Position numbers and translations under genes: made by a program. Source: a virus. Taken from it: a stretch of DNA of 64,000 nt. Every line of letters begins with the position of its first letter. The first letter of the stretch is position 1. Below the pieces are notes generated by a model. It did not search any database. It saw only the letters and a list, made by a program, of their open reading frames with translations, and was not told the DNA's origin. The stretch spans positions 1 to 64,000 of IMG/VR virus record IMGVR_UViG_3300034107_000273; one strand, 5' to 3'. Below, piece by piece: positions 1 through 14,800 of this stretch.

Positions 1-200
1 CAAGCTCATCAGTTGATTTTCCAGTAGGATCACAAATTACAGTTCTACAAACTGGAGCAGGTCAAACAACAATTACTGCTGGATTAGGCGTTACTATAAA
101 TGGAACACCTGGATTAAAGTTACGTGCCCAGTGGTCATCAGTAACATTAATTAAGCGTCTTACAGATACATGGGTTGTAGTCGGAGACTTAACAGCATAG
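1..200 (+). CDS. C-terminal end of a tail fibre or receptor-binding structural protein (partial)
   Basis: The reading frame that ends at the TAG at 198-200 is open back to the window edge, giving about 65 residues without a start. The composition is that of beta-rich virion proteins: many Thr, Val and Gly, with SQITVLQTGAGQTTI near the start and a C-terminus of alternating hydrophobic strands ending in TWVVVGDLTA. This short strand-rich ending is common in phage tail fibre and tail spike C-terminal domains. A strong terminator follows at 243-273, so this is the last gene of the preceding transcription unit. Function is inferred from composition and context only. Confidence 0.6.
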   Translation, partial: SSSVDFPVGSQITVLQTGAGQTTITAGLGVTINGTPGLKLRAQWSSVTLIKRLTDTWVVVGDLTA

Positions 201-242
201 TACTTATAAAATAATAGAGTGCTAACTCTATACTAAAGATTT

Positions 243-273
243 ACACGCTCTTTATGAGCGTGTTTTTCTTTTT
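243..273 (+). terminator. Intrinsic terminator after the partial tail gene
   Basis: Perfect 8-bp stem ACACGCTC/GAGCGTGT (243-250 with 256-263), 5-base loop, followed by a T-rich tail TTTTCTTTTT. It separates the tail gene from the ribonucleotide reductase unit. Confidence 0.9.
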
Positions 274-279
274 AAAGTA

Positions 280-288
280 TGTTATACT
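280..288 (+). promoter_or_regulatory. Extended -10 promoter for the ribonucleotide reductase gene
   Basis: TGT followed by TATACT at 283-288, just after the terminator. Start would fall near 295, giving a leader of about 54 bases that holds a small hairpin (TACTTC/GAAGTA) and a GAAAGG ribosome-binding site. No B12-riboswitch-sized leader is present. Confidence 0.6.
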
Positions 289-348
289 TAGGTACTACTT
301 CAGAAAACATGAAGTACTCATCTAATTTTACTTTGAAAGGTATATAAA

Positions 349-2382
349 ATGTCAGAAAGCGTATTTTCTTTTCGTCTATCAGAAGAATTTGTAAATAAAT
401 ATCAATTAACTCCAGCACCATTTGGATTCTCAGATGCAGGATCTAACTCGTTAGGAGAAATAACATTTATTCGTACATATTCTCGTGTTAAGGAAGATGG
501 GACTAAAGAACGCTGGCATGAAGTTTGCCGTCGTGTAATTGAGGGTATGTATTCAGTTCAAAAGAATCATGCTAAAGATAACCGTCTACCATGGAATGAT
601 AATAAAGCACAGAAGTCTGCACAAGAAGCTTTTCAAAGAATGTTTGAATTAAAGTGGACTCCACCAGGTCGTGGTCTTTGGGCATTTGGTACTCCTATGA
701 CTATGGAGAAACGTAACTCTGCCTCCCTTCAAAATTGTGCAATGGTTTCAACTAGAGACCTTGATCGCAATGATCCTGGTGCATTATTTGCTTGGGTAAT
801 GGATGCTTTAATGTTAGGCATTGGAGTTGGATTTGATACTCTTGGACAAGACAAGAAGATGGCAATTTATGCTCCAACTGAACCAGCATCAACTTATGAT
901 ATTCCTGATACCCGTGAAGGATGGGTAGAATCAGTTCGTCTTTTAATTAACTCATTCCTTCGTCAAAATCAACCAATTCAATTATTTAACTATGACCTTA
1001 TACGTCCTCTAGGAGCACCTATTAAGGGCTTTGGAGGGGTAGCCAGCGGTCCAGCACCACTTATTGATCTCCATACACGTATTCGTAATGTAATTGGTTC
1101 TAGAGCTGGAGAATTTCTAGATAGTCGTGCAATTGTTGATACCGTAAACTTAATTGGTACATGTGTTGTTTCTGGAAATGTTCGTCGTTCTGCAACTCTT
1201 GCTCTTGGAACTCCAGAAGATGATGGATTTATTAATCTTAAGAATCCAGAAGTATTTCCAGAAAGAAACTCATATGATCCAGAAAAGCCAGGCTGGGCAT
1301 GGATGTCAAATAATTCCATTGCTGCTGAAATTGGAACAAAATATGAAGACTATGTAGATTTAATTGCAGATAATGGAGAGCCAGGATTTATTTGGCTTGG
1401 AGTTGCAAGAGATTATGGTCGCCTTGCAGATGCACCAGACTATAAGGATTCCCGTATTATGGGATTCAATCCTTGTGCGGAGCAGCCATTAGAGTCATAC
1501 GAATTATGTACACTTGTAGAAGTGCATTTAAATCGTCATGAATCTAAGGAGGACTTCCTCAAGACATTGAAGTTTGCATATCTTTATGGAAAGACTGTAA
1601 CTCTTATGCCAACACATTGGCCAATAACAAACGGTATTATGCAACGTAATCGTCGTATTGGTACATCTTTAACAGGTATTGCTGCATTTGCTGACCAATA
1701 TGGTTTGCCAACAACACGTGAATGGATGGATGATGGTTATAACACAATTCGTAAATATGATCATCAGTATTCAGAATGGCTATGTGTTCGTGAGTCAGTT
1801 CGTGTAACTACCGTCAAGCCATCAGGTTCAGTATCACTACTTTCTGGTGCAACTCCTGGAGTTCACTGGGGTCCTGGAGGAGAATTTTATTTGCGTGCTA
1901 TTCGTTTTGGTGATCAAGACCCAATGCTTCATCTTTTCAAAGCTGCGGGGTATAAGATTGAAAAAGACCTTGTATCAGCAAATACATCAGTAGTATATTT
2001 CCCTGTAGCATCTGGACATAAGCGTGCTGAAAAGCAGGTTAGCCTATTTGAAAAGATTGGTTTGGCAGCAACTGCTCAGAAGTACTGGTCAGACAATGGT
2101 GTTTCTGTAACATTATCTTTTGATAAGGAAACAGAAAAGCAGTTTGTTGCTCCAGCACTTAATATGTATGAAGGTCAACTGAAGGCGGTTTCATTCCTTC
2201 CAATGGGAAATAAAACTTATCCACAGCAACCATATACAGAAATCTCACGAGAAGAATACAACTCATACGTAGGAACAATTGGAAAGATTGATTGGTCTGC
2301 TATTTATGATGGTGTAGAGAATCTTGAGGCTGAAGGCGAGAGCTACTGTTCCACAGACGCATGTGAGATCAAGTTATACTAA
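349..2382 (+). CDS. nrdJ: Adenosylcobalamin-dependent (class II) ribonucleoside-triphosphate reductase, monomeric type
   Basis: Reduces ribonucleotides to deoxyribonucleotides for phage DNA synthesis, using B12 to make a thiyl radical. The 677-residue protein lines up throughout with the monomeric Lactobacillus-type enzyme. Visible landmarks are the N-terminal redox cysteine in SLQNC (C130), the thiyl cysteine in NPCAEQ (C376), its partner C387 in ELC eleven residues later (same spacing as the reference enzyme), the VKPSG loop, and the C-terminal pair C667/C672 in CSTDACEIK. The family NPCGE motif reads NPCAE here. Start ATG follows GAAAGG. It lies alone between a terminator and the head genes. 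It lets the phage make dNTPs with or without oxygen if the host supplies cobalamin. Confidence 0.95.
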   Translation: MSESVFSFRLSEEFVNKYQLTPAPFGFSDAGSNSLGEITFIRTYSRVKEDGTKERWHEVCRRVIEGMYSVQKNHAKDNRLPWNDNKAQKSAQEAFQRMFELKWTPPGRGLWAFGTPMTMEKRNSASLQNCAMVSTRDLDRNDPGALFAWVMDALMLGIGVGFDTLGQDKKMAIYAPTEPASTYDIPDTREGWVESVRLLINSFLRQNQPIQLFNYDLIRPLGAPIKGFGGVASGPAPLIDLHTRIRNVIGSRAGEFLDSRAIVDTVNLIGTCVVSGNVRRSATLALGTPEDDGFINLKNPEVFPERNSYDPEKPGWAWMSNNSIAAEIGTKYEDYVDLIADNGEPGFIWLGVARDYGRLADAPDYKDSRIMGFNPCAEQPLESYELCTLVEVHLNRHESKEDFLKTLKFAYLYGKTVTLMPTHWPITNGIMQRNRRIGTSLTGIAAFADQYGLPTTREWMDDGYNTIRKYDHQYSEWLCVRESVRVTTVKPSGSVSLLSGATPGVHWGPGGEFYLRAIRFGDQDPMLHLFKAAGYKIEKDLVSANTSVVYFPVASGHKRAEKQVSLFEKIGLAATAQKYWSDNGVSVTLSFDKETEKQFVAPALNMYEGQLKAVSFLPMGNKTYPQQPYTEISREEYNSYVGTIGKIDWSAIYDGVENLEAEGESYCSTDACEIKLY

Positions 2383-2413
2383 TGGTTACAACTGGTTCAC
2401 TTTAACATGATTA

Positions 2414-2422
2414 TGGTATACT
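2414..2422 (+). promoter_or_regulatory. Extended -10 promoter, leaderless configuration
   Basis: TGG followed by TATACT at 2417-2422. The ATG at 2430 lies 7 bases after the -10 with no Shine-Dalgarno, so transcription would start at or next to the start codon. Confidence 0.6.
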
Positions 2423-2429
2423 TATGGTT

Positions 2430-2840
2430 ATGAGTAATACAACTAATCCATTAATTAATCAAAAGACTGGTTTACCAATTGTTGGAAATGTACGCAAAAA
2501 GGTCATTGAAAAGAACTATGACTGGGGCTTGTATGTTTACAAAAAAGCAAATGGTCGCTGGTTTACTGACGGTAATGGTAATGTTTTAAATATTGAGTCT
2601 ATGCGTAATGATATCTCTAAGATGACTGAGCTAAAGAATGCAGCAAAGCACTATGGCGATGCAGGAGATGGAGAAGTAATATTTGTTCCTGGGCTAACAC
2701 GTATTTCAGAAGAAGAACATTCAGAACAACTTGATCGTATGGTCAGTGGTTTGATACCTTCTAAAAATGACTTAGGTGCTTGGAAAGCTGCAAAAGATAC
2801 ACTTGAGACACATGGAAGAGAAGCGTACGAAAATGGCTAA
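2430..2840 (+). CDS. Conserved-type hypothetical protein upstream of portal
   Basis: 136 residues, no domain recognised. It is charged and soluble, with no signal peptide or membrane segment. The start was placed at ATG 2430 because the -10 element ends at 2422, so the alternative in-frame ATG at 2424 would lie before the likely transcription start. It overlaps the portal start by 8 bases and so begins the head operon. Position suggests a morphogenesis-related role, but nothing in the sequence shows one. Confidence 0.75.
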   Translation: MSNTTNPLINQKTGLPIVGNVRKKVIEKNYDWGLYVYKKANGRWFTDGNGNVLNIESMRNDISKMTELKNAAKHYGDAGDGEVIFVPGLTRISEEEHSEQLDRMVSGLIPSKNDLGAWKAAKDTLETHGREAYENG

Positions 2841-4437
2841 TGAAGAATATCAGTATATTTCTGCAAGTTTAAATACACAAGAAGAAACGGTAAACTCTTT
2901 TAAAGAGCAAGACCCGTTTAATAAATCTTGGGACATGCTTAAAGACTTTTCTGGATTAGAACAAAACTTTCGTCGTAGAACAGCAAGAAACCTTAACAAG
3001 TTTGCAGATGTAAACAATGCAGCATATCTAGATTCTGCAAATGTTACACCATCAGGTGTGGATGCTTCATCAAAGCAGATCAATCCTGGAACGGTATACA
3101 GAAATGGTTATGGACTATTTGATGTAATTACTCCTCCATATAATCTATATGAACTTGCAAATTTTTATGATACATCTTTTGCTAACCACGCTGCTATTGA
3201 TGCAAAGGTTGCAAATATTGTTGGTCTTGGATATTCATTTGAAGCAACAGACCGCACCATGCTTTCTTTTGAGGGTAAGGAACAAAGCGCTATAGATAAA
3301 GCACGGAAGCGTATGGAAAGAATGAAGCTTGAAATGCGTGACTGGCTAGAAAACCTTAATGATGATGATTCATTTACAAAGACAATGGAAAAGGTTTACA
3401 CAGACGTTGAGTCTACTGGAAATGGATACCTTGAAATAGGTCGTACAGTAAATGGAGACATTGGATATGTTGGTCATATACCATCAACTACAATTCGTGT
3501 TCGCCGTTTGCGTGATGGATATATGCAGATCATTTCACAAAAGATTGTTTACTTTAGAAACTTTGGTGCAACCAATCCTAATCCAGTCACAGAAGATCCA
3601 CGTCCAAATGAGATTATTCATATCAAGGAGTATTCTCCACTAAACACTTTCTATGGAATTCCTGATATTATTGCAGCACTTCCTTCACTTATTGGTGATC
3701 AACTTGCATCACAATATAACATTGACTACTTTGAGAATAAGGCTGTTCCAAGATATGTCGTAACCTTAAAGGGCGCAAAGCTTTCTGGAGAAGCAGAGGA
3801 CAAGATGTTCCGCTTCTTGCAGACAGGCCTTAAGGCACAGTCTCATAGAACCCTTTATATTCCTCTTCCTGGAGATACTGACCAGAACAAGGTTGAGTTC
3901 AAAATGGAGCCAATTGAAAACGGAATACAAGATGGCTCATTCAAGGAATACCGCAAGCAAAATCGTGATGATATTCTTGTTGCTCATCAGGTGCCAATTT
4001 CAAAACTTGGCGGTACTGATTCAGCAGCAATCGCAGCATCAATTGCACAAGATAGAACATTTAAGGAACAGGTTTCACGTCCTGCACAAGGGCACTTAAA
4101 TAAAGTTATCAACAAGATCATTAAAGAAAAAACAGACATACTTGAGTTAAAGTTTAACGAACTTACACTTACAGATGAAATTACTCAATCACAAATTCTT
4201 GAGCGATATGTAAAGACTCAAGTTATGATGCCTAATGAGGCTCGTGAAGCAATTGGTCTTCCACAGCATCCAGGCGGAGATACTCCATTTGAAATGTCTC
4301 CAAGACAAGCAACAGATTCTAGAGCGAATGCATCTGGCAACAGAGCAAGAGATACTGAACGAAACAATAGCCAATCTGATGGACCTGCAACCACAACTGG
4401 ACGTAATCCACAGGGTGAAGGTAGAGCGTCTCAATAG
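2833..4437 (+). CDS. Phage portal protein
   Basis: Forms the dodecameric ring at the capsid vertex through which DNA is packaged and ejected. 534 residues, within the usual range for HK97/SPP1-type portals. Typical blocks are the AAIDAKVANIVGLGY region, GNGYLEIGR, the strand-rich PSTTIRVRRL section, EIIHIKEYSPLNTFYGIPDI, and the long helical part with NIDYFENKAVPRYVV and LVAHQVPISKLGG. The C-terminus is low-complexity and polar (Asn, Arg, Gln, Ser). ATG 2833 overlaps the previous gene by 8 bases; an in-frame ATG at 2812 is possible. The terminase genes are about 45 kb away in this window rather than adjacent. Confidence 0.93.
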   Translation: MANEEYQYISASLNTQEETVNSFKEQDPFNKSWDMLKDFSGLEQNFRRRTARNLNKFADVNNAAYLDSANVTPSGVDASSKQINPGTVYRNGYGLFDVITPPYNLYELANFYDTSFANHAAIDAKVANIVGLGYSFEATDRTMLSFEGKEQSAIDKARKRMERMKLEMRDWLENLNDDDSFTKTMEKVYTDVESTGNGYLEIGRTVNGDIGYVGHIPSTTIRVRRLRDGYMQIISQKIVYFRNFGATNPNPVTEDPRPNEIIHIKEYSPLNTFYGIPDIIAALPSLIGDQLASQYNIDYFENKAVPRYVVTLKGAKLSGEAEDKMFRFLQTGLKAQSHRTLYIPLPGDTDQNKVEFKMEPIENGIQDGSFKEYRKQNRDDILVAHQVPISKLGGTDSAAIAASIAQDRTFKEQVSRPAQGHLNKVINKIIKEKTDILELKFNELTLTDEITQSQILERYVKTQVMMPNEAREAIGLPQHPGGDTPFEMSPRQATDSRANASGNRARDTERNNSQSDGPATTTGRNPQGEGRASQ

Positions 4438-4459
4438 TTGAGAAATAGTTTAAAAGGTT

Positions 4460-4468
4460 TGGTATAAT
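4460..4468 (+). promoter_or_regulatory. Extended -10 promoter, leaderless configuration
   Basis: TGG followed by TATAAT at 4463-4468. The next ATG (4478) is 9 bases downstream and there is no Shine-Dalgarno between them. Confidence 0.65.
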
Positions 4469-4477
4469 AGAATCGTC

Positions 4478-5770
4478 ATGAATATAAATAAAGCACATTG
4501 GTCAACAGACGGCGATAATGTACGTCTGTCAATGCCACTTACAAAGGTAGATAAAGAGAAGCGTATTGTCTCTGGCTTTGCTTCTTTGGACAACCTTGAT
4601 AAGCAAGATGACATTGTAACTACTGAAGCTTCTATGGAGGCTTTTGCTAAGTTCCGTGGCAACATCAGAGAAATGCACCAGCCATCAGCAGTAGGCAAGA
4701 TGGTTTCATTTAAAGAAGAAAAATATTTTGATCCAGAATCAAAGAAATTTTATAAGGGTGTTTTTGTATCAGCGTATATCTCAAAGGGCGCACAAGATGC
4801 ATGGGAGAAGGTTCTTGATGGAACCTACACTGGTTTTTCTATTGGGGGACGAATGAATAAGTGGGACGATGCATATGATGAAAAATCAGATAAAACAATT
4901 AGAGTTATTAAAGAATATGATTTGATTGAGTTGAGTCTTGTAGATTCCCCAGCAAATCAATTTGCAAATATTGTATCCGTTGAAAAGGTTAACGGAGTAG
5001 ACACACTAACAGGATCATCAGCTAACTTAGTTGTTGAAAATGTATTTTATGACTCAGAGTCTGGCTTAGTAACTTTGTCAGCAAATGAATCAGAGATAAG
5101 TCCAGTCACTGGCGAAGAAATGAAAAACATTGGTTTTGTTGAAAAAAATGATTCAGAAAAAACAGAAATGATAAAGTTCTTAGTTGATAGTGCAAAAGGC
5201 ATTAGAACAATTAAGATAGCAAAGGAGGATAATCCTATGACAGAAAATACAGAAGTAGTTGCAGAAGCAACTCCAGAAGTTAATGAAGTTGAGGTTGCTC
5301 CAGAGGCTCCTGCAGAGGCGATTGCAAAGTCACTAGAAGTTACAGAAGAAGTTGTAACAGAAAAGTCAGATGCAGTTGTTGAAGAGGGTAGTGCTCCTTC
5401 TATTGAAGAAGTAACAGAGAAGGCTGACGAAGCAATAGTTGAGGTTGCAACAGCAACAGCAGAAGTTGCTAAGGCAGTTTCTGAAATTCAGAACTCTGTA
5501 ACTAATGCCTTGAGCGATCTTGCAGCAACAGTAAAGGCTATGCAAGCTAATGTTGATGCAATCACAAAATCTCTTGAATCCGTAACAGAGGAAGTTAAGG
5601 AAGTTAAGGGAAGCTTTAATGAATTTGGAAAGACCGTAGATGCCGTAGTTGCAGATACCGCTTTCCGCAAGTCTGGCGATCTCGGCGAGATTGTACAGGA
5701 ATCACCTAAAGTGATTCAGAAATCCCTATGGGGCGGACGTTTCCTCACAAATTCCGACCTATTTAACTAA
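4478..5770 (+). CDS. Prohead protease fused to an acidic coiled-coil (scaffold-like) C-terminal region
   Basis: The first ~170 residues match HK97-type (U35/S78-like) prohead proteases: VSGFASLDNLDKQDDIV, the catalytic His in REMHQP (H67), the nucleophile Ser in TGFSIGGRM (S121), and ELSLVDSPANQ. These enzymes trim the scaffold and capsid proteins during head maturation. Residues ~250-400 are rich in Glu, Ala, Val and Thr and look like a long coiled coil, as in capsid scaffolds. The last ~25 residues, ending near LWGGRFLTNSDLFN, are less acidic and could contact the capsid. The gene has a leaderless-type promoter and an internal start (separate entry). It precedes the major capsid gene by 26 bases. 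Confidence 0.9.
   Translation: MNINKAHWSTDGDNVRLSMPLTKVDKEKRIVSGFASLDNLDKQDDIVTTEASMEAFAKFRGNIREMHQPSAVGKMVSFKEEKYFDPESKKFYKGVFVSAYISKGAQDAWEKVLDGTYTGFSIGGRMNKWDDAYDEKSDKTIRVIKEYDLIELSLVDSPANQFANIVSVEKVNGVDTLTGSSANLVVENVFYDSESGLVTLSANESEISPVTGEEMKNIGFVEKNDSEKTEMIKFLVDSAKGIRTIKIAKEDNPMTENTEVVAEATPEVNEVEVAPEAPAEAIAKSLEVTEEVVTEKSDAVVEEGSAPSIEEVTEKADEAIVEVATATAEVAKAVSEIQNSVTNALSDLAATVKAMQANVDAITKSLESVTEEVKEVKGSFNEFGKTVDAVVADTAFRKSGDLGEIVQESPKVIQKSLWGGRFLTNSDLFN
5237..5770 (+). CDS. Putative nested scaffold protein from an internal start in the protease gene
   Basis: An ATG at 5237 lies in frame inside the protease gene (codon 254), 8 bases after a near-perfect Shine-Dalgarno AAAGGAGG (5221-5228), stronger than that of most genes here. 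Initiation would give a 177-residue acidic protein containing only the coiled-coil region and the C-terminal tail. This is the arrangement of lambda C/Nu3 and similar protease-scaffold pairs, where the short form is the abundant scaffold. The ribosome-binding site falls exactly at the end of the protease part. Expression is inferred, not shown. Confidence 0.6.
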   Translation: MTENTEVVAEATPEVNEVEVAPEAPAEAIAKSLEVTEEVVTEKSDAVVEEGSAPSIEEVTEKADEAIVEVATATAEVAKAVSEIQNSVTNALSDLAATVKAMQANVDAITKSLESVTEEVKEVKGSFNEFGKTVDAVVADTAFRKSGDLGEIVQESPKVIQKSLWGGRFLTNSDLFN

Positions 5771-5796
5771 AACAAAATCACTAGGAGGTGAACAAT

Positions 5797-6924
5797 ATGT
5801 CAGAAACAACAAACACAGAGCTCCAAAAGTCTTTTAATCATCCCACAGGTGATGGCGTTGCCGTATCAGGTGGAATTGGTGGTGCAGTAGCACGAGGACC
5901 TCTTGGAAATCTAACTCCAGCAGAGTCACTTGGTAACATTGCCACAGCGAACTTTGGAGTAACAACAGGCGCAAACGCAGTAAACCCATCAGGTACACCT
6001 GGTGGTATCCTTGCACCAGAACAGGCTCGTCGCTTCATTGATTATGTATGGGATGCAACTGTACTAGCCAAGGATGGTCGTAGAGTTACAATGCGTGCTA
6101 ACACAATGGAACTTGAGAAGGTCAACGTTGGAGAGCGTGTCATTCGTGCAGCAGCACAGGCACAACCTACATTCACAAATGCAGGTGCAACATTCTCTAA
6201 GGTAGAACTTACAACCAAGAAGATTCGTCTTGACTGGGAAGTTTCAACAGAAGCACTTGAAGACAATATTGAAGGCGCAGCACTTGAAGATCATCTAGTT
6301 CGCTTGATGACAAATGCATTCGCAAACGATATTGAAGACCTTGCCATTAATGGTGATGGTTCAACAGGCGACTTCCTTTCAATCATGGACGGTTTCGTAA
6401 ATCGTGTCAAGACTGATGGAGATGCTCACGAGTCAATCGTTACTGTATCAAATAACGCATGGACACCAGAAGTTATGCAGGATATTATCCTAGCAATGCC
6501 ACGCAAGTACCGTGCTATCAAGAACAACCTAAAGTTCTATGCTGGTACAGATGCATTCCAGGGAATCGTTAAGAATAACGGTACACTTGCTGATGCAGTT
6601 GCAGAAGCATTTGCAGGACAGATCGCAGGATCAACACAAGCTAATCGTCAGGCTTACCTAGATGGTGGAGCACAGACATTTGGTGGAGCACGTACAACAC
6701 GTGTTCTTGGTGTTGACGTACAGGAAGTTCCATACTACCCAGCAGGCTATGTAGATCTTACATTCCCTTCAAACCGTGTATGGGGATTCCAGCGTGATAT
6801 CACTGTAAACCGTACTTACCAGCCAAAGAAAGATACAATTGAATACACAGTATTCGTTCGTTTCGGTCTTCAATGGGAAGAGCTTGATGCAGTTGCTTAT
6901 GCAGATGCAGCATCAGAATCATAA
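5797..6924 (+). CDS. Major capsid protein (HK97 fold)
   Basis: 375 residues, with a start at ATG 5797 after a strong AGGAGGTG. Builds the icosahedral shell. Supporting features are the position directly after the protease/scaffold, the length, an N-terminal arm rich in Gly, Ala and Thr, the E-loop-like region with NVGERVIRAAAQAQ, a central helix with DIEDLAINGDG, and a C-terminal P-domain section ending VFVRFGLQWEELDAVAY. Codons are more GC-ending than in neighbouring tail genes, as expected for a highly expressed protein. A hairpin without a U-tract follows the stop. Confidence 0.92.
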   Translation: MSETTNTELQKSFNHPTGDGVAVSGGIGGAVARGPLGNLTPAESLGNIATANFGVTTGANAVNPSGTPGGILAPEQARRFIDYVWDATVLAKDGRRVTMRANTMELEKVNVGERVIRAAAQAQPTFTNAGATFSKVELTTKKIRLDWEVSTEALEDNIEGAALEDHLVRLMTNAFANDIEDLAINGDGSTGDFLSIMDGFVNRVKTDGDAHESIVTVSNNAWTPEVMQDIILAMPRKYRAIKNNLKFYAGTDAFQGIVKNNGTLADAVAEAFAGQIAGSTQANRQAYLDGGAQTFGGARTTRVLGVDVQEVPYYPAGYVDLTFPSNRVWGFQRDITVNRTYQPKKDTIEYTVFVRFGLQWEELDAVAYADAASES

Positions 6925-6937
6925 TATTTGATTCCAA

Positions 6938-6972
6938 GACAAGGAGGGTAGAGAAATCTGCCCTCCTTTGTC
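6938..6972 (+). terminator. Hairpin after the capsid gene (attenuator or mRNA-stabilising stem)
   Basis: GACAAGGAGGG (6938-6948) pairs with CCCTCCTTTGTC (6961-6972) with one bulged T and a loop of about 12 bases. No T-run follows, so full intrinsic termination is uncertain; partial termination or 3-prime protection of the abundant capsid mRNA is as likely. Confidence 0.55.
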
Positions 6973-6978
6973 ATATTC

Positions 6979-6987
6979 TGATATAAT
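6979..6987 (+). promoter_or_regulatory. Extended -10 promoter for the head-tail connector genes
   Basis: TGA followed by TATAAT at 6982-6987, directly after the capsid hairpin. The next gene starts at ATG 7004 with GGAGG at 994-998 of that thousand, giving a short leader. The promoter argues against the upstream TTG at 6968 as the start. Confidence 0.65.
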
Positions 6988-7003
6988 AGCAGTGGAGGAT
7001 ACA

Positions 7004-7342
7004 ATGTCATTAATTGAAGATTTAAAAAGTAAAACCGTGTTTGAGTTAAAGTCATATGCGAAGAAAAATAACATTGACCTATTTGGGGTAAGTACAAAAA
7101 ATGATATTTTAGAAGTAATCTTTAGCTTTGTTCCTAAAGAGTCATCAAAGATAGTAGTTAGCAAGCCAGAGTCAACAGAAAAGGTAGCAATCTATTCAGT
7201 TCGTAACCTTAGCTGGAATGGTGTTGGTGAACTAACCAGGGGGTACAACATAGTCACTAAGGAGGATGCTGATAAATGGATAACAAACAAGTCTGTACGC
7301 ACAGCTTCTCCAGAAGAAGTGAAGAGAGCATACGGTAAGTAA
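7004..7342 (+). CDS. Small protein with SAP/Rho-N-like N-terminus, between capsid and connector genes
   Basis: 112 residues. The first ~40 residues (LKSKTVFELKSYAKKNNIDL followed by TKNDILEVIF) resemble the short two-helix SAP/HeH/Rho N-terminal fold that binds nucleic acid or serves as a small structural module. The C-terminal half includes VAIYSVRNLSWNGVGEL and a KEDADKWI section. Genes of this type often follow the capsid gene in actinophages. The start is ATG 7004, chosen for its GGAGG site and because the promoter lies just upstream. The function in the virion is not known. Confidence 0.75.
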   Translation: MSLIEDLKSKTVFELKSYAKKNNIDLFGVSTKNDILEVIFSFVPKESSKIVVSKPESTEKVAIYSVRNLSWNGVGELTRGYNIVTKEDADKWITNKSVRTASPEEVKRAYGK

Positions 7343-7345
7343 ACC

Positions 7346-8308
7346 ATGGAAGCCTTAAGAGTCCCACCATATCCTATTCTTGTTACCTATACCGTTGCAG
7401 AGCCAAACACGGATCATATAGTAGAAATCAAAGATAAAGACAGAAATGATATACTTGCAGAGTACGAAGTAGAGTCCTCTGCAGACTCAAAAATTTCTAT
7501 AGAGATTGCTGGAGATTTAACTAAGTATGATGACAGTTATTATTTAGTTGTTTATCAGGAAACAGTAGACCAAGACTCAATAGTTGTTGAAGATAATTTA
7601 GAAATAAGAAGACCATATGTAAACCCTGCTATGCTAGGAACAACAGCCTCTGAGGTTGCAGAATATGCTAAATATGAAAGAATTGCAAGAGCAATAATTG
7701 ATTCAGTTACAGGTGGATTTTATTATAAGGTTGAGTGGCTTGATCAGACTGGGCAAGGAACAGACTACCTTCCTATCTGGGAAAGAGTTTATAAGATTTT
7801 AAAGGCATATGAAAACTCATTATTAGTTTATGATGCAAGCTTAGCATCTCCTGTTCTTGGTGAATGGGTGTACGAATTAACAAAAGATAAAACTGCTATC
7901 ATGAAAAATACAGAAACTCCAGGAATGATTGGAAATAGATCTGAGCAAAAAAGCTTAACTATTAATACTGCCTCATCAGATTCATTTAATGTTTATGATA
8001 CAGACTATAGCGAAAATGCATATACATTCTCAACTGGAGCAGCTTTCCCAGAAGGATGGGACTATCTATTCTTGCTTGAATCAGGATATAAGGTTATTCC
8101 TCATGACATATATGAAGCAGCATTAATGCTTATTGACGACATTAAGTGTGGCAAAATAGATTATTACAAGAGATATGTAACATCATATAACACTGAACAG
8201 TTCAGAATTCAGTTTGATAAGACAGTTTTAGACGGTACTGGAAATATGCTTGTTGACAAGATTCTTGATAAATATAAGAAGAGTATAACAAGAATTGGTA
8301 TTCTTTAA
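7346..8308 (+). CDS. Putative head-tail connector (adaptor-like) protein
   Basis: 320 residues. The N-terminal ~95 residues are strand-rich with an Ig-like look (YPILVTYTVAEP, YYLVVYQETV). The rest is helical: EVAEYAKYERIARAIIDSVTG, PIWERVYKILKAYEN and VIPHDIYEAALMLIDDI. The helical part and its position after the capsid gene fit adaptor proteins that sit under the portal. It starts 3 bases after the preceding stop and ends in a TAATG junction with the next gene, so it is translationally coupled. The call rests mainly on gene order. Confidence 0.6.
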   Translation: MEALRVPPYPILVTYTVAEPNTDHIVEIKDKDRNDILAEYEVESSADSKISIEIAGDLTKYDDSYYLVVYQETVDQDSIVVEDNLEIRRPYVNPAMLGTTASEVAEYAKYERIARAIIDSVTGGFYYKVEWLDQTGQGTDYLPIWERVYKILKAYENSLLVYDASLASPVLGEWVYELTKDKTAIMKNTETPGMIGNRSEQKSLTINTASSDSFNVYDTDYSENAYTFSTGAAFPEGWDYLFLLESGYKVIPHDIYEAALMLIDDIKCGKIDYYKRYVTSYNTEQFRIQFDKTVLDGTGNMLVDKILDKYKKSITRIGIL

Positions 8309-8754
8309 TGCAATGCGAGATAACAGACTTTGTGTACCCAATGCTTGCAGATGTCTACTATCCAATAGTGGATCAGGGAGCGTATGGAAATGTAAAAAAG
8401 CAGTGGATTATTGATAGATCTATTGCTTGTAACTTTGCTCCAACTGGACAGTCTACAACTGAAGAAGTAAAGCCAAATGTAAATATTACAAAAGAAAATA
8501 TATTATTAGGAAGAACTAAGACAGACCTTAGAGTATCTTTATCAAACAATAGAAATTCAGTAACTAACGTAGTTGTAACAAATATAAGAACACCACAACA
8601 AGAAGACGTATATCTAGAAACCTCTGGCCCAAGAAATGGAAGATCAACTATATATGAAATAGCATCAACTGAAGCTATAGTTGGACCATTTGGTAGTGTA
8701 GAGTATTACAAGGTAGTCTTGAGACGTTCAGAGAACCAGGCAAGTGATCTATAA
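8308..8754 (+). CDS. Putative head-closure (stopper-like) protein
   Basis: 148 residues, TAATG-coupled on both sides. It contains a beta-rich core (DLRVSLSN, VVVTNIRTP, EYYKVVLRRSE) and a middle RTKTDLRVS segment. In siphophages the slot after the adaptor is normally the stopper that closes the connector once packaging ends. No motif proves this; the assignment is by order and size. Confidence 0.5.
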   Translation: MQCEITDFVYPMLADVYYPIVDQGAYGNVKKQWIIDRSIACNFAPTGQSTTEEVKPNVNITKENILLGRTKTDLRVSLSNNRNSVTNVVVTNIRTPQQEDVYLETSGPRNGRSTIYEIASTEAIVGPFGSVEYYKVVLRRSENQASDL

Positions 8755-9425
8755 TGAAAGTTATAATGAACAATGCTGCCTTTAAAAAGGATATGAAAAA
8801 TATAATGAACTATTCAATTGGGTTTTTAGATGGTATACAAATAGGAAAAACAAAATTTTTAAACAATGTTGGATTAATGACAAAAGAAATATTAGAGCAA
8901 TATATTGACTCAAATGCCAGGGTAAATCCAAAAGCACTACACCATATGTATGAATGGTATAAAGTGGGAAGTCCTGATGCACGTCTATATAATATAAACT
9001 ATACTATAAGCAACCTTGGCCTTTCGTTTGTGTCAACAATGAAGCAATCAACATCAATTAAAGATGGCTCATCAGTACCTTTTTATAATAAGGCTAAAAT
9101 AATGGAAGAAGGCACTCCAGTAACCATAAGACCAACAAAGGCAAACGCATTGGTTTTTGAAGATGGTGGAGAAACAGTCTTTACTAAAGGCGAGGTTGTA
9201 GTACAGTCACCTGGTGGAACAGCAACAAAAGGTTCTTTTGAAACCGTAGTAGATACATTTTTTAATAGATATTTTACTCAAGCATTTTTAAAATCAAGCG
9301 GAATGTATCAACACCTAAGCAACGCTGATGTATATAAAAAGAATATGTTAGCAGGAAAAGCTTCTGGAAAGATAAAAGGCCAGCAAGTAGGATATAAATG
9401 GATAGTGAATGCGGGGATTAGATAA
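8754..9425 (+). CDS. Putative HK97 gp10-like neck or tail-completion protein
   Basis: 223 residues. The central part has the pattern seen in gp10-like tail-completion proteins: an N-terminal helix that begins AAFKKDMKNIM, then GTPVTIRPTKANALVFEDGGETVFTKG split by short strands, then a PGG turn and a C-terminal helix (TFFNRYFTQAFL). It lies in the conserved slot between stopper and tail terminator and is joined to both by TAATG overlaps. The family match is by pattern and order only. Confidence 0.55.
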   Translation: MKVIMNNAAFKKDMKNIMNYSIGFLDGIQIGKTKFLNNVGLMTKEILEQYIDSNARVNPKALHHMYEWYKVGSPDARLYNINYTISNLGLSFVSTMKQSTSIKDGSSVPFYNKAKIMEEGTPVTIRPTKANALVFEDGGETVFTKGEVVVQSPGGTATKGSFETVVDTFFNRYFTQAFLKSSGMYQHLSNADVYKKNMLAGKASGKIKGQQVGYKWIVNAGIR

Positions 9426-10009
9426 TGGCAAATGATTCAACCTTAAATACTCCAGTTCTTTGGATCAACAAATATTTAGAAGAAAAAATATTAGGCATGA
9501 CGGGTATTGATAAGATTCCATTTTTCCCATCAACACCATCTACTATAGATAATCTGACAGAAATGTTTCCTACAGGTGGAGTTATGGCAACTTGGGACCG
9601 ACTAATAAAAATGAATCGCAAAGGATTCCCACACATTAAGTGTGAGCAGTTGTTGTACTATTTTTATGCAACAGCAGAAAATACAATAGAAAACATGGTA
9701 CAGGTTCAAGAGTCTGTTTTAAGACTAATGGATCGCTTTGATGAAACAGCAGAAGAAATAAACAACTGGTGCTCTAACAGACAGATAAATCTAGGAACAG
9801 ATCAAAACCCAGACTTAATAGATAACATGTTCTACTTCCACAATTTTAAGGTATACCAACTTGAGGAGACCAGAGACATAATTGATTTTGGCACAGCCAG
9901 GACCTATGGCGGTAACAAGATAATTATTGACTTTGACTATCACCCTATGAAAGAGTTAACGTCCAGAGACTGGAAGCCTGAGAAGCTAGCCACAAAAATT
10001 ATCCTATAA
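9425..10009 (+). CDS. Putative tail terminator protein
   Basis: 194 residues, last gene before the tail tube protein, where siphophages usually encode the tail terminator that caps the tube and joins it to the head. Mixed alpha/beta composition, with two cysteines near the middle (KCEQLLYYFYA, NNWCSNRQ) and a C-terminal strand region (NKIIIDFDYHP). No catalytic motif. A promoter at 10015-10023 follows the stop, so this ends the connector operon. Confidence 0.5.
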   Translation: MANDSTLNTPVLWINKYLEEKILGMTGIDKIPFFPSTPSTIDNLTEMFPTGGVMATWDRLIKMNRKGFPHIKCEQLLYYFYATAENTIENMVQVQESVLRLMDRFDETAEEINNWCSNRQINLGTDQNPDLIDNMFYFHNFKVYQLEETRDIIDFGTARTYGGNKIIIDFDYHPMKELTSRDWKPEKLATKIIL

Positions 10010-10014
10010 AACGC

Positions 10015-10023
10015 TGTTATAAT
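10015..10023 (+). promoter_or_regulatory. Extended -10 promoter for the tail tube gene
   Basis: TGT followed by TATAAT at 10018-10023. The leader to ATG 10085 is about 55 bases and ends with AAAGAGG. Confidence 0.65.
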
Positions 10024-10084
10024 TATCTTGAGGAAACACAACGCCGTACAACTAAATATCCACTTAACAGAAAGAGGTACAGAA

Positions 10085-10720
10085 ATGGCATATAATCGTG
10101 GAACGTCCAACAATATCATCGTTGGAGCAGCAGCGCTTTTTATTGCAGATACAACACTAACTCCAGCCACACTGGAGACACCAGAAGCAAGTAAGTCATT
10201 CAGAGATACATTGACTGATGACGCAACCTACACAAACGTAGGTTTCACAATGAACGGTCTTGAATTGCAGTTCCAACCTGATTTCGGTGAAGTACAGGTT
10301 GACCAACTTCTTGACGTTGCTAAGCTATACAAGCAAGGAATGCAAGTTAATCTTGCAACAGCATTCGCAGAAGCCACACTAGAAAATCTTCTATTGGCTT
10401 TGGCATATGGAGATTCACAGCTATCAGGTACAAAGAGCACATCTGCTGGACGTGCACTTGACCTATCTGCTGGAAAAATTGGCGAGTGCCCAGTAGAGCG
10501 TGGTATCGTTGCAGTAGGTCCAGGCACAGGTGACTGTGTTGACTCTGCATACGTAGAGCGAATTTACTCAGCATACCGTGCACTTTCAATTGAGAATGTA
10601 ACAGTATCTGCAAAGCGTGAAGAAGCTTCAATGTTTGAAGTTTCATTCCGTCTACTTCCAGAAGATGGTTCAGGATCATACGGTAAGATTGTTGACCGTA
10701 CTTGGACACAAGCTTCATAA
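10085..10720 (+). CDS. Major tail (tube) protein
   Basis: 211 residues with start ATG 10085 after AAAGAGG. Forms the stacked hexameric rings of the tail tube. Evidence is a single-gene transcription unit with its own promoter and strong terminator, a GC-ending codon preference like that of the capsid gene, its position just before the tail-assembly chaperones, and a beta-rich sequence typical of tube proteins (FTMNGLELQFQPDFGEVQV, SIENVTVSAKREEASMFEVS). An in-frame TTG lies upstream at 10028 but lacks a ribosome-binding site. Confidence 0.85.
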   Translation: MAYNRGTSNNIIVGAAALFIADTTLTPATLETPEASKSFRDTLTDDATYTNVGFTMNGLELQFQPDFGEVQVDQLLDVAKLYKQGMQVNLATAFAEATLENLLLALAYGDSQLSGTKSTSAGRALDLSAGKIGECPVERGIVAVGPGTGDCVDSAYVERIYSAYRALSIENVTVSAKREEASMFEVSFRLLPEDGSGSYGKIVDRTWTQAS

Positions 10721-10739
10721 TAACTTAATAATACAGCTT

Positions 10740-10775
10740 AGCCCATCTCATAACGAGGTGGGCTTTGTTGTTTTT
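10740..10775 (+). terminator. Intrinsic terminator after the tail tube gene
   Basis: AGCCCATCTC (10740-10749) pairs with GAGGTGGGCT (10755-10764) with a T/G wobble, 5-base loop, followed by TTGTTGTTTTT. Confidence 0.88.
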
Positions 10776-10776
10776 G

Positions 10777-10785
10777 TGGTAAACT
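10777..10785 (+). promoter_or_regulatory. Extended -10 promoter, leaderless configuration, for the long tail chaperone
   Basis: TGG followed by TAAACT at 10780-10785, with ATG 10795 nine bases later. A second -10-like TATACT abuts the ATG and would be too close to serve it. No Shine-Dalgarno precedes the start. Confidence 0.5.
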
Positions 10786-10794
10786 TAGTATACT

Positions 10795-11511
10795 ATGGCT
10801 ACAGAAGTATATAAAACAAAAAATATCTATTTATTTGATGGTACAGAGGTGCAAGTTATGCCTCTTAAAATTAAATATCTTAGAGAGTTTATGGATGTAT
10901 TTAATAACATAAAGAAAGCATCAAATGATGATGAATCAATGATGGTTTTATTAGAGTGTGCAAGAATTGCAATGAAACAATATTATCCTCAAATATCTAA
11001 AAACATAGAAGATCTTGAAGATAACATAGATTTGCCAACGGTGCATGAAATTTTAGAAATTGCTGCAAATATAAAAATAGGTGAAGACTCAGAAGAAAGT
11101 ATAAAGACTCAAGCACAAAGCAGCGAGGCTGGTCCAACATGGGAAGATTTTGATTTAGCAAAACTTGAATCAGAAGTATTTTTGCTGGGTATATGGAAAG
11201 ATTATAGTGAACTAGAAGCATCAATATCTTTATCTGAGCTATTATCAATAATAGCAAGTAAAAGAGAGTTAGACTTCCAAGAAAAGAAATTTTTTGCAGC
11301 AATTCAAGGTGTTGATTTAGAAGGCGGATCAGAACCTGAAAGAGGACAAAAGGAATGGGAAAACTTAAAGGCTAGAGTATTTAGTGGTGGTGCAACATCT
11401 GACAGCAAGGACATTTTAGCATTACAAGGACAAAATGCTAAAAATGTAGGATTTGGAATTGGCATGGGTCTTGATTATGAAGACGCAAGAGACCCCTCAG
11501 TCATGGTATAA
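10795..11511 (+). CDS. Tail assembly chaperone, long form (G-T-like)
   Basis: 238 residues. The first ~100 residues are clearly paralogous to the next gene: both read MAT-V, FDGTEV/IDGTEI, PLKI-LR-FM, LLEC/LMEC, I-LEDNIDLPTV. The remaining ~140 residues form a second domain (GPTWEDFDLAKLESEVFLLGIW, LSELLSIIASKREL, FFAAIQGVDLEGG). This matches the G-T tail chaperone made in many siphophages by frameshifting. Here the long form is its own gene and no frameshift is needed. It probably coats the tape measure protein before tube polymerisation. The promoter of the next gene overlaps its stop codon. Confidence 0.8.
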   Translation: MATEVYKTKNIYLFDGTEVQVMPLKIKYLREFMDVFNNIKKASNDDESMMVLLECARIAMKQYYPQISKNIEDLEDNIDLPTVHEILEIAANIKIGEDSEESIKTQAQSSEAGPTWEDFDLAKLESEVFLLGIWKDYSELEASISLSELLSIIASKRELDFQEKKFFAAIQGVDLEGGSEPERGQKEWENLKARVFSGGATSDSKDILALQGQNAKNVGFGIGMGLDYEDARDPSVMV

Positions 11512-11512
11512 T
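11504..11512 (+). promoter_or_regulatory. Extended -10 promoter for the short chaperone and tape measure genes
   Basis: TGG followed by TATAAT at 11507-11512, overlapping the stop codon of the long chaperone. The next ATG (11539) has an AGGGAGG site. Confidence 0.65.
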
Positions 11513-11538
11513 TGATACGAACCTAGGGAGGGATCAAA

Positions 11539-11862
11539 ATGGCAACAACTGTGCATGAAGCGCATAAAGTCAAACTAATTGATGGTACAGAAATAACCTT
11601 AAGACCGCTTAAGATTTCACTTTTACGAAAGTTTATGAAAAAGTTTGAGGGTATTGCAGCAGTGGTAGATGATAACGATAAGTCAATCAATCTACTAATG
11701 GAATGTGTACTAATCGCAATGGAACAATATAAGCCAGAACTAGCAGCAGATATTTCTGCTCTTGAGGAAAATATTGACTTACCTACAGTATATGAAATTG
11801 TTGAAACTGCATCAGGAATTAAGCTTTCTGAAGCGTCATCAATTTTCAGTTCTGATGAGTAA
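11539..11862 (+). CDS. Tail assembly chaperone, short form (G-like)
   Basis: 107 residues, paralogous to the N-terminal domain of the gene before it and lacking the T-like second domain. Strong Shine-Dalgarno (AGGGAGG) and own promoter, so it is probably made in larger amounts, as G is relative to G-T in lambda. It lies 26 bases before the tape measure gene. The two-gene form suggests duplication followed by loss of the second domain in one copy, replacing the usual programmed frameshift. Confidence 0.8.
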   Translation: MATTVHEAHKVKLIDGTEITLRPLKISLLRKFMKKFEGIAAVVDDNDKSINLLMECVLIAMEQYKPELAADISALEENIDLPTVYEIVETASGIKLSEASSIFSSDE

Positions 11863-11888
11863 TATAACTAAATAAAGAGGTGTAGTGA

Positions 11889-14800
11889 ATGGCTGATGTT
11901 CAGTCTAATATTAAAGTAAGTATTGATACTACTGACGCACTAGCCAGTATCAAAAACTTACAAAGACAGATATCAGCCTTTCACACATCAATGGCTAAGG
12001 GTGGTGCTGCTGCTAATGCAGTCACTAGCCAATTACAGCAAAACTTAATTAACTCAGTTAATGCTACAGGCAAGTTCTCTGCCCAAATGAGAACCATTAA
12101 AACAACAACTGAATCTTTTACAAGTTCTTTAGAAAAGAACAAGTTCTCCATGGGAGAATACTTTAGGTATGCTGGTGGTGCATCAAAAACTTTTGGTAGA
12201 TTATTTAAAACTGAGTTTGAAACAATAAATAAAGTAGCAAGAGAAAATGTAAAAGATCTTCAAACACAATACATCAAGATGGGCCGTGATGCAAACGGTG
12301 CAATGAAGGCAATTGCCGTAAGACCACTTTCTCTTGATATGAATAATCTTGCAACAAAAACTATGGTTGCTGCTCAAAAACAAGCAATCCTTAATCAGCT
12401 ATTAAAACAAGGATCAACCAATCTTTTAAACTTTGGTAAAAATACACAGTGGGCTGGTCGTCAGCTTATGGTTGGTTTTACAATACCACTTATGGCTCTT
12501 GGAGCTGCAGCATCAAAAACGTTCATGGATATGGAAACACAGGCTATACGCTTTAAAAAGGTTTATGGAGATTTATTTACTTCAACAACAGAAAGTACTG
12601 CAGCATTAGATGCAATAAAAAATCTTGGTAAAGAATTTACAAAGTATGGAATTGCAGTATCAGATACAGTTGGTCTTGCATCAGAAGCAGCTGCAGCAGG
12701 TTTTAAGGGTATTGACCTTCAAAGACAAACAGCAGCAGCAACAAGGCTTTCTATTTTGGGACAAGTTGAAAGTCAAAAAGCACTTGAAACTACCATTGCA
12801 TTACAAAATGCTTTTGCAATGTCTTCTGAAGATTTAGCAAAAAATATTGACTTTCTTAACGCAGTAGAAAACCAGACAGTTTTATCTCTTGATGATATGT
12901 CAACTGCTATTCCAAAAGCAGCTCCAGTTATTCAACAGCTTGGTGGAGATGTTAAAGATTTAGCATTCTTCATGGCTGCAATGAAAGAAGGTGGAATCAA
13001 CGCATCAGAAGGTGCTAACGCACTTAAGTCTGGTCTTGCTTCTATGATCAATCCTACTGCAAAAGCATCAGCAATGCTTCAAGGTTTTGGAATTAATATA
13101 AAGAAAATTGTTGTAGACAATAAGGGTGATTTAAAAAAGACTGTAACTGATTTTGCAACAGCATTAAATAAGCTTGATCCACTTAACAGAGCACAAGCAA
13201 TTGAGCAGATGTTTGGTAAATTCCAGTTTGCTCGTTTGTCTACACTTTTTGCAAACGTTACAAAAGAAGGTACTCAAGCAGCTCGTGTACTTGATTTAGC
13301 TGGGGCATCAATTCAAGAACTTGCAGCTCTATCTGAAAAAGAATTAGGACAAACATCAGAGTCTGCAATGAACAAGTTTAGGTCATCTATTGAACAGTTA
13401 AAGCTAGCTTTAGTACCAGTTGGAGAACAGTTCTTAAAGGTTATAACACCAATTGCTGAGTTTATTACAAAGATTTTAGATAAGTTCAATAGCCTTGGAG
13501 ATGGAACAAAAAAGGTTATTGTTGTATTAACAGCTGTAGTTGCTGGCCTTGGTCCAGTATTGCTTATGACATTTGGTTTGCTTATGAATGGACTTGCAAA
13601 TATAATTAAAGGTTTTACATTCTTAAAGTCTATATTTAATAAAGCAGGAAGAGCAACTGGAACTCTTGGCGATGAAGTCAAGTATATGACTACTGAACAG
13701 AGAAATGCTGCAGCTGTTGCATCTTCACTTGATCAAGTTCATAGAAAACTTGCACAAACATTTAGCTCTGAAGCAGCAGCAGTTGATGGACTAACAAGAG
13801 CCTATTACAGAGCAGTTGCAGCCCAATCACAATTTATGCCAATTAGAGTACCACTTCAAAGAGGCGCAGTTAAAAAGAGAGCAAAGGGAAAGCCTGCAAG
13901 AGTTGGCGGTACAGGAAATCAAGATACAGAATTAGCATTACTAATGCCTGGAGAAACAGTAATTCCAACTAAGATGAGCAAGAAGTATGCCTCAATTATT
14001 AATGGAATGATTTCTGACACTATTCCTGGCTATAAGGTTGGAAGAGATCCAGGATCTGGTTCGGCAGGAAGAGTTGGTAAAGTTATTCCAACAGTTCTAA
14101 GGCCTTACTCAGCAAACGTTAGTGCAACATCTGGTTTGGTTGATTTCTTAAATATTGATCCTAGCAATACTGCCGATGTTGCTAGCCTATACACTAAGCA
14201 AATTATGGACGCAGCAGGTGTTTCAGCAAAATCTGTAGTAACTGAAATTAACAAATGGCGACAAAACAATATGGCTGCTTTGCAGAAGGCTGCTAATGCA
14301 GTTAATGCTGGAGCAGATGCAACAACAGAGTTTGGACCATTAGTAGAAAAATTTAATGCAGATATGAAAAAAGCAGGGGGACCTTTTTCTCAGTTTGCAG
14401 CAACAGCAAAAAGAATGGTTCCAGAACTTTCAAAAGATTTAGTTCAAGCACAAACAAAAGCAAGAGAATTAGGCTTAAATATTAAAAGGGGTGCAGATGC
14501 TGTTAGACTGTCAGAAGCGCTACCTGGAAATATGATTGCTGGTGATTTATCAAAACCAGGTAATTTTTCAAAATTTTCAAAAATTAGAGCAGGAGCAGGT
14601 TCATTATTTGGAAAGACTCGTGGAATTAAATATATGGGAATTCCTAGATTTATGCTTCCTGATATGCATCCAAGTGAAAGAGCTTATAAGTTAGGAACTT
14701 CACAAGAACATATTAGCTCGTCTCTTCAACAAGAAGCACAAGCAATAAGTTTAAGAGCAGAAAGATTAGCAAGAAAGTCAACAAGTAAAGAATCTGCAGA

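Follow-up and report, generated by a model that had tools for sequence, protein, structure and literature searches.

A conserved internal start suggests a scaffolding protein nested in the prohead protease gene of actinophages and their environmental relatives

The prohead protease gene of the virus analyzed here probably encodes two proteins with a common C-terminus: an S78 protease-scaffold, which is the full-length product, and a nested scaffold translated from an in-frame start inside the same gene. Judging from sequence signals and their conservation, we give this reading a probability of about 0.85. No description of an internal scaffold start in these phages was found in the literature searched, which was mostly open-access.

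Head gene organization and the internal start

The window, that is, the whole 64,000-nucleotide stretch analyzed, is part of a 107,956-base viral record. Its head gene region shows the following features, given in window coordinates.

2824..4437, + strand: portal protein gene, just 5' of the protease gene (profile matches)
4463..4468, + strand: TATAAT, resembling a -10 box, with its end 9 nt upstream of the ATG of the full-length gene; may serve as promoter for a transcript with no leader or a very short one
4478..5770, + strand: full-length prohead protease-scaffold gene, 430 aa (Pfam and PHROG matches, AlphaFold2 model)
Domain plan of the 430-aa protein, + strand: S78 protease at residues ~22-165, then a small domain at 186-239, a linker, the helix and the tail (model)
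5221..5228, + strand: internal Shine-Dalgarno sequence AAAGGAGG (direct reading, conservation)
5237..5770, + strand: nested in-frame gene with ATG start, 177 aa, proposed scaffolding protein (sequence signals, conservation)
5417..5659, + strand: region encoding one long helix (residues 314-394), the predicted coiled-coil part of the scaffold (AlphaFold2 model, coiled-coil matches)
5669..5743, + strand: C-terminal tail, invariant K398-S399 to F422 (KSGDLG ... WGGRF) (55-sequence alignment)
5797..6924, + strand: major capsid protein gene, HK97 fold, 375 aa, without delta domain (profile matches, model)

The portal and protease genes are separated by 40 bases. The capsid gene begins 26 bases 3' of the protease stop, which places the nested gene just upstream of it, and the capsid start is preceded by AGGAGGTG at 5783-5790. 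Elsewhere in the window, a class II-type ribonucleotide reductase gene (349-2382) lies directly 5' of the head genes, and a 3303-codon open reading frame (11889-21800) is, by its position, probably a very long tape-measure gene. The portal stop codon forms the loop of a perfect palindrome, TCTCAA-TAG-TTGAGA (4429-4443), of which many close relatives keep a slightly changed version.

Direct reading confirmed every element of the signal from which the sequence-only reading had started: AAAGGAGG, a spacer of 8 bases (5229-5236), an in-frame ATG (5237-5239) and a product of ~177 residues. The ATG is codon 254 in frame with 4478 and opens 177 codons, with the stop at 5768-5770. The site had also been placed exactly at the border between protease and coiled coil. 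It does lie inside the protease gene, but not at the very edge of the coiled coil, because in the AlphaFold2 model residue 254 falls where the linker starts, and the coiled coil follows only some 60 residues later.

Site strength was expressed as the duplex energy with the 16S tail. Four internal sites at -9 or below occurred in the 13,285 in-frame codons of 66 mechanically called window genes, the AAAGGAGG site being the strongest. Among 5000 codon shuffles of the gene that preserved the protein, 13% produced an internal site at least as strong, as did 13% of 200 in a second run. Since about 13% of synonymous shuffles match it, the site is not beyond chance on the window sequence alone; it is the conservation across related sequences that moves it far beyond chance. 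An RNA structure exposing the internal site was considered and rejected, as accessibility there is ordinary (0.458 against a gene mean of 0.434).

Conservation of the internal start among relatives

The sequence-only reading had been staked beforehand on conservation of the internal site, and an in-frame internal start with a Shine-Dalgarno sequence was found in 197 of 198 distinct complete open reading frames (ORFs) from phage records and environmental contigs. The sample comprised 284 rows, which reduced to 212 distinct ORF sequences, 198 of them complete; only exact repeats were removed, and related sequences weigh equally in all counts. Seventeen of 210 matching phage records were examined. 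The 14 distinct ORFs cut by a contig end were left out of the 198; eleven extend as far as the site and all eleven carry it, and the other three (L184, L185 and L246) stop short of it. Brevundimonas phage Polewnik (L096) and Vibrio phage Ceto (L097) were excluded from all counts. In Polewnik the match was confined to the protease part, and no such internal site was found in the stretch scanned.

Site energy was -7.9 or lower in 197 of the 198 complete ORFs and -9.9 or lower in 195, with L095 and L101 having weaker sites (-8.0). The internal site was present in all 80 of the closest viral contigs and in Rhodococcus phages Trina, Peregrin and NiceHouse; it was also present in 12 records of Streptomyces phages, ten of which are assigned to Loccivirinae or Boydwoodruffvirinae. 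The internal start opens 172 codons in Streptomyces phage Faust and 186 in Trina. Its spelling differs among the Streptomyces and Rhodococcus phages, where we read GAAGGAGGTGTAATC-GTG, AAGGGAGGTGCAGAACAA-ATG (or GTG), GAAGGAGGTCAGTCAAAT-ATG and AAAGGAGATTTCCCACAA-ATG. All 197 counted sites are followed by an in-frame ATG, GTG or, once, TTG (L275), in a scan that considered start codons of these types only, and the spacing was 7, 8 or 10 nt in 171 of 177 sites. In L080 the lowest-energy site is a chance GTG 20 codons before the end, the canonical site (-12.3) being second. The sole complete ORF without the site, L159, lacks the site region and has its scaffold part in another frame (L159 3001-4200); this protease gene looks like a broken copy or an assembly error.

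In a diverged branch an inserted stretch of more than 100 residues precedes the site, with a match to Hva1_TUDOR (PF11160) in the rows scanned for it (L183, L186 and L114 only). The insert is carried by L183, L186-L199 and L201-L205, and also by L114, L118 and L120. Complete rows of this branch have 371-407 codons before the internal start, and still a nested product of 181-196 codons. That the nested product keeps its length despite the insert counts in favour of the internal start.

Selection on the nucleotide signal

Codon usage at the site was analyzed in 68 non-redundant representatives, chosen greedily so that each pair shares less than 60% of 5-mers (L147 and L159 were dropped). GGAG begins at codon position 3 in 31 of the 68 and at position 1 in the other 37, and the peptides that the motif spells vary accordingly (KEDNP, KEVNP, EGGVIV, KGGAEQ, EGGQSN and KGDFPQ among dozens in all). 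Since the motif occurs in two different codon frames and the peptides it encodes run to dozens, it is the nucleotide signal that is kept and not the peptide. In the first frame the glutamate codon of the motif is GAG in 31/31 (30% elsewhere in these genes); in the second the glycine codon is GGA in 37/37 (28% elsewhere). In 62 of 68 representatives the nested product has A, S, T or G directly after its first residue, whereas other in-frame ATG or GTG codons are followed by one of these in about 20% of cases, so that by its sequence the predicted product begins like a real N-terminus. The same scan found sites of -10 or lower in 66 of 68 protease genes, in none of 54 capsid genes and in one of 53 portal genes.

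Protease part and structure model

Based on profile searches, the first 170 residues are covered by matches to PF14550 (Peptidase_S78_2; 31 bits, cut-off 24) and PF04586 (Peptidase_S78; 28.7 bits, cut-off 21). The whole 430-aa protein matched phrog_9427, 'head maturation protease', and there was a match to TIGR01543 (HK97-type prohead protease) below its cut-off. H67 and S121, which we take from HK97 to be the catalytic residues, are invariant in 55 sequences. The Peptidase_S78 match together with the conserved histidine and serine assigns the protein to the S78, HK97-type prohead proteases. No S49 peptidase domain, the family of lambda C, was present among 25 of the 26 Pfam families listed.

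The AlphaFold2 model of the full protein, built from 55 sequences, is of moderate confidence (mean pLDDT 68.6). It comprises a protease fold (22-165), a small domain (186-239) whose terminal helix, ending at 239, is the last ordered element before the site, a low-confidence stretch (243-315) that is disordered over 243-313, one 81-residue helix (314-394) and a low-confidence tail. The C-terminal part of the gene thus has a scaffold-like helical make-up. After residue 170 the only invariant columns in the 55-sequence alignment are G219, K398, S399 and F422, and the conserved tail motifs were found in 197 and 196 of 197 sequences. The model matched named prohead proteases among predicted viral structures; a Foldseek search against the PDB gave nothing at E <= 0.001, and a solved-structure search with the protein profile returned coiled-coil proteins, with no protease among the best 60 of 360. 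In the small domain (window 5033-5194), Streptomyces and Rhodococcus relatives show by eye cysteine pairs such as CGNC, resembling a zinc ribbon, and the window protein has none.

The full-length start and relative translation strength

Median duplex energies were -2.9 for the full-length start, -12.3 for the internal start and -14.5 for the capsid start. The internal Shine-Dalgarno sequence was the stronger in all 59 testable representatives; the comparison took those with a start codon at the match start, and 9 of the 68 were not comparable. The abundance that had been predicted for the scaffold fits these signal strengths.

One of ten -10-like hexamers ends 5-11 nt upstream of the full-length start in 57 of 68 representatives; none of 63 capsid starts has one there, and of 1677 other ATGs only 33 do. 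In actinobacteria such a -10 spacing often indicates a leaderless message. TATAAT is not enriched in the window, with 55 occurrences on the + strand against 65 expected from base composition. Because it has almost no Shine-Dalgarno sequence and a TATAAT 9 bases upstream, the full-length start may well be leaderless, or have a very short leader, and be of low yield. We rate a leaderless start of the full-length protease at only just short of even odds. The proposed TATAAT promoter was not listed in a sigma-70 scan, and no good -35 was found. Counting against it also, the protease gene of some Streptomyces relatives overlaps the upstream gene by 4 bases, and there translational coupling could operate. 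A promoter for a separate scaffold mRNA was considered as well and discarded, a sigma-70 scan of positions 1-12000 having given 34 sites against 37.6 in shuffles.

Capsid protein and neighbouring genes

We looked for a scaffold elsewhere among the head genes. A delta domain, an N-terminal helical scaffold domain of about 100 residues, was not found on the capsid protein. The alignment with TIGR01554 (HK97 capsid) begins with residue 65 at profile position 108, and the first 71 residues of the capsid model are loops and short strands without helix, at low confidence. In relatives of ~330 aa such as L106, the conserved capsid fold starts about 25 residues in. A solved-structure search with the capsid profile gave one weak 'Major capsid protein'. 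None of 8 neighbouring window proteins matched a scaffold family at E <= 0.01, and no scaffold is annotated between the protease and capsid genes in 14 annotated isolate records. The absence of a separate scaffold gene, which the sequence-only reading had assumed, therefore holds as far as the capsid protein and these 8 neighbours were tested. The 177-residue product itself had no clear match to a scaffold family: phrog_73, 'head scaffolding protein', reached only E = 0.039, among many coiled-coil matches. In the more remote Vibrio phage Ceto the protease has 202 aa and the capsid precursor is long, a different solution from the nested scaffold proposed here.

Proposed mechanism and alternative explanations

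In the mechanism that we propose, translation from 4478 would give the 430-residue protease with its scaffold tail, and the strong internal Shine-Dalgarno sequence with the start at 5237 would give the 177-residue scaffold alone. With a weak full-length start and strong internal and capsid sites, a single mRNA would yield the protease in low number and both scaffold and capsid protein in high number. Free scaffolds would pair through their long helix, and their conserved C-terminal tail would bind the capsid shell or the portal. Helix and tail would also bring the protease into the procapsid, and the protease would later cut the scaffold. The sequences show the two starts with their signals and conservation, the domain layout and the lack of a delta domain; from these we infer the use of both starts, their ratio, leaderless transcription and the binding and cleavage of the scaffold. 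A separate scaffold made from the nested start, as first proposed, is supported by the 197/198 conservation and by a capsid protein without delta domain.

The motif AAGGAGG might instead act without initiation, as a Shine-Dalgarno-like translational pause giving the protease domain time to fold ahead of coiled-coil synthesis, and in the model the site does follow closely on the final ordered element of the protease portion. Such a pause needs no start codon, yet an in-frame one stands behind all 197 counted sites (the scan being restricted to ATG, GTG and TTG), at a spacing of 7, 8 or 10 nt in 171 of 177, and in 62 of 68 representatives it is followed by a small residue as at real N-termini; we consider a pause very unlikely. 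Equally unlikely is that the internal start goes unused and the scaffold is freed solely when the full-length protein cleaves itself. In favour of this route, the prohead proteases of related systems cleave both themselves and scaffolds, and from the alignment the conserved KS motifs of the tail could be cut sites. However, self-cleavage would force equal amounts of protease and scaffold, and it leaves the selection on the Shine-Dalgarno codons and the start codon unexplained.

The short product could also be made and yet not be the assembly scaffold, serving as a portal- or protease-targeting chaperone or as a protease regulator while other proteins act as scaffolds. Scaffolding is argued from gene order, helix and tail only, with no family match above noise, and several Streptomyces phages have an extra short gene between portal and protease, assigned to phrog_8980 (unknown function; scanned in L081 only). 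A gene of that type is, however, unannotated in Francob and absent from the window with its 40-base portal-protease gap; in addition, the capsid protein lacks a delta domain, and the neighbours tested gave no scaffold match. We regard a product of this kind as improbable, though less so than a pause or self-cleavage alone, and retain the nested scaffold as the preferred reading.

Relation to known systems and biological meaning

Nu3 of phage lambda is the in-frame 3' part of gene C, and this C/Nu3 overlap was reportedly described by Shaw and Murialdo in 1980. The window gene would follow the same strategy, one gene for protease and scaffold, and one source likewise places the protease and scaffold of lambda in a single gene (PMC8508860). 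Another source puts the lambda C peptidase in family S49 (PMC10695390), whereas the window protease belongs to S78. The likeness to C/Nu3 that had been drawn from the sequence alone thus extends to the strategy but not to the protease family, and because the gene would work like C/Nu3 without S49 membership, we class it as a variant of the C/Nu3 strategy.

According to a source that treats phage PaMx73 (PMC4378225), the Mu scaffold starts in frame within the protease gene, and gene 27 of PaMx73 has a predicted internal start with the Shine-Dalgarno sequence ACGAGGA and a 9-nt spacer. The in-frame scaffold start inside the protease gene would be the same here; the PaMx73 site is of GTG type (Val 177) and, according to that source, was predicted by comparison with Mu, whereas the present one is conserved over ~200 distinct sequences. 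The scaffold of HK97 and of Pseudomonas phage D3 is the N-terminus of the capsid protein, the delta domain, as stated in two sources (PMC10275583, PMC12749128). The window resembles these phages in that an HK97-type prohead protease gene adjoins an HK97-fold capsid gene, and differs in that its capsid protein has no such domain. Some phage endolysin genes also give a full-length and a C-terminal product from one gene through in-frame internal starts (PMC9430671); the pairing of products is alike and the function is another.

The full-length start without a Shine-Dalgarno sequence, 9 bases behind TATAAT, is new here and suggests a leaderless, low-yield protease start. Tentatively, and at somewhat less than even odds, we propose for an entire super-group of large actinophages (Stanwilliamsviridae, Rhodococcus phages Trina, Peregrin and NiceHouse, and numerous relatives from the environment) that the ratio of protease to scaffold to capsid protein is fixed on one mRNA, by a leaderless start close behind a -10 box for the scarce protease and by strong Shine-Dalgarno starts for scaffold and capsid. 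The nested scaffold would then have arisen separately from those of lambda and Mu, on a protease of the S78 family. The nested-scaffold strategy looks convergent because it would be used with a protease family other than that of lambda. The finding gives a large actinophage group, environmental relatives included, a candidate scaffold and corrects the annotation of the gene; it would also make it possible to test by simple genetics what determines how many proteases a procapsid receives.
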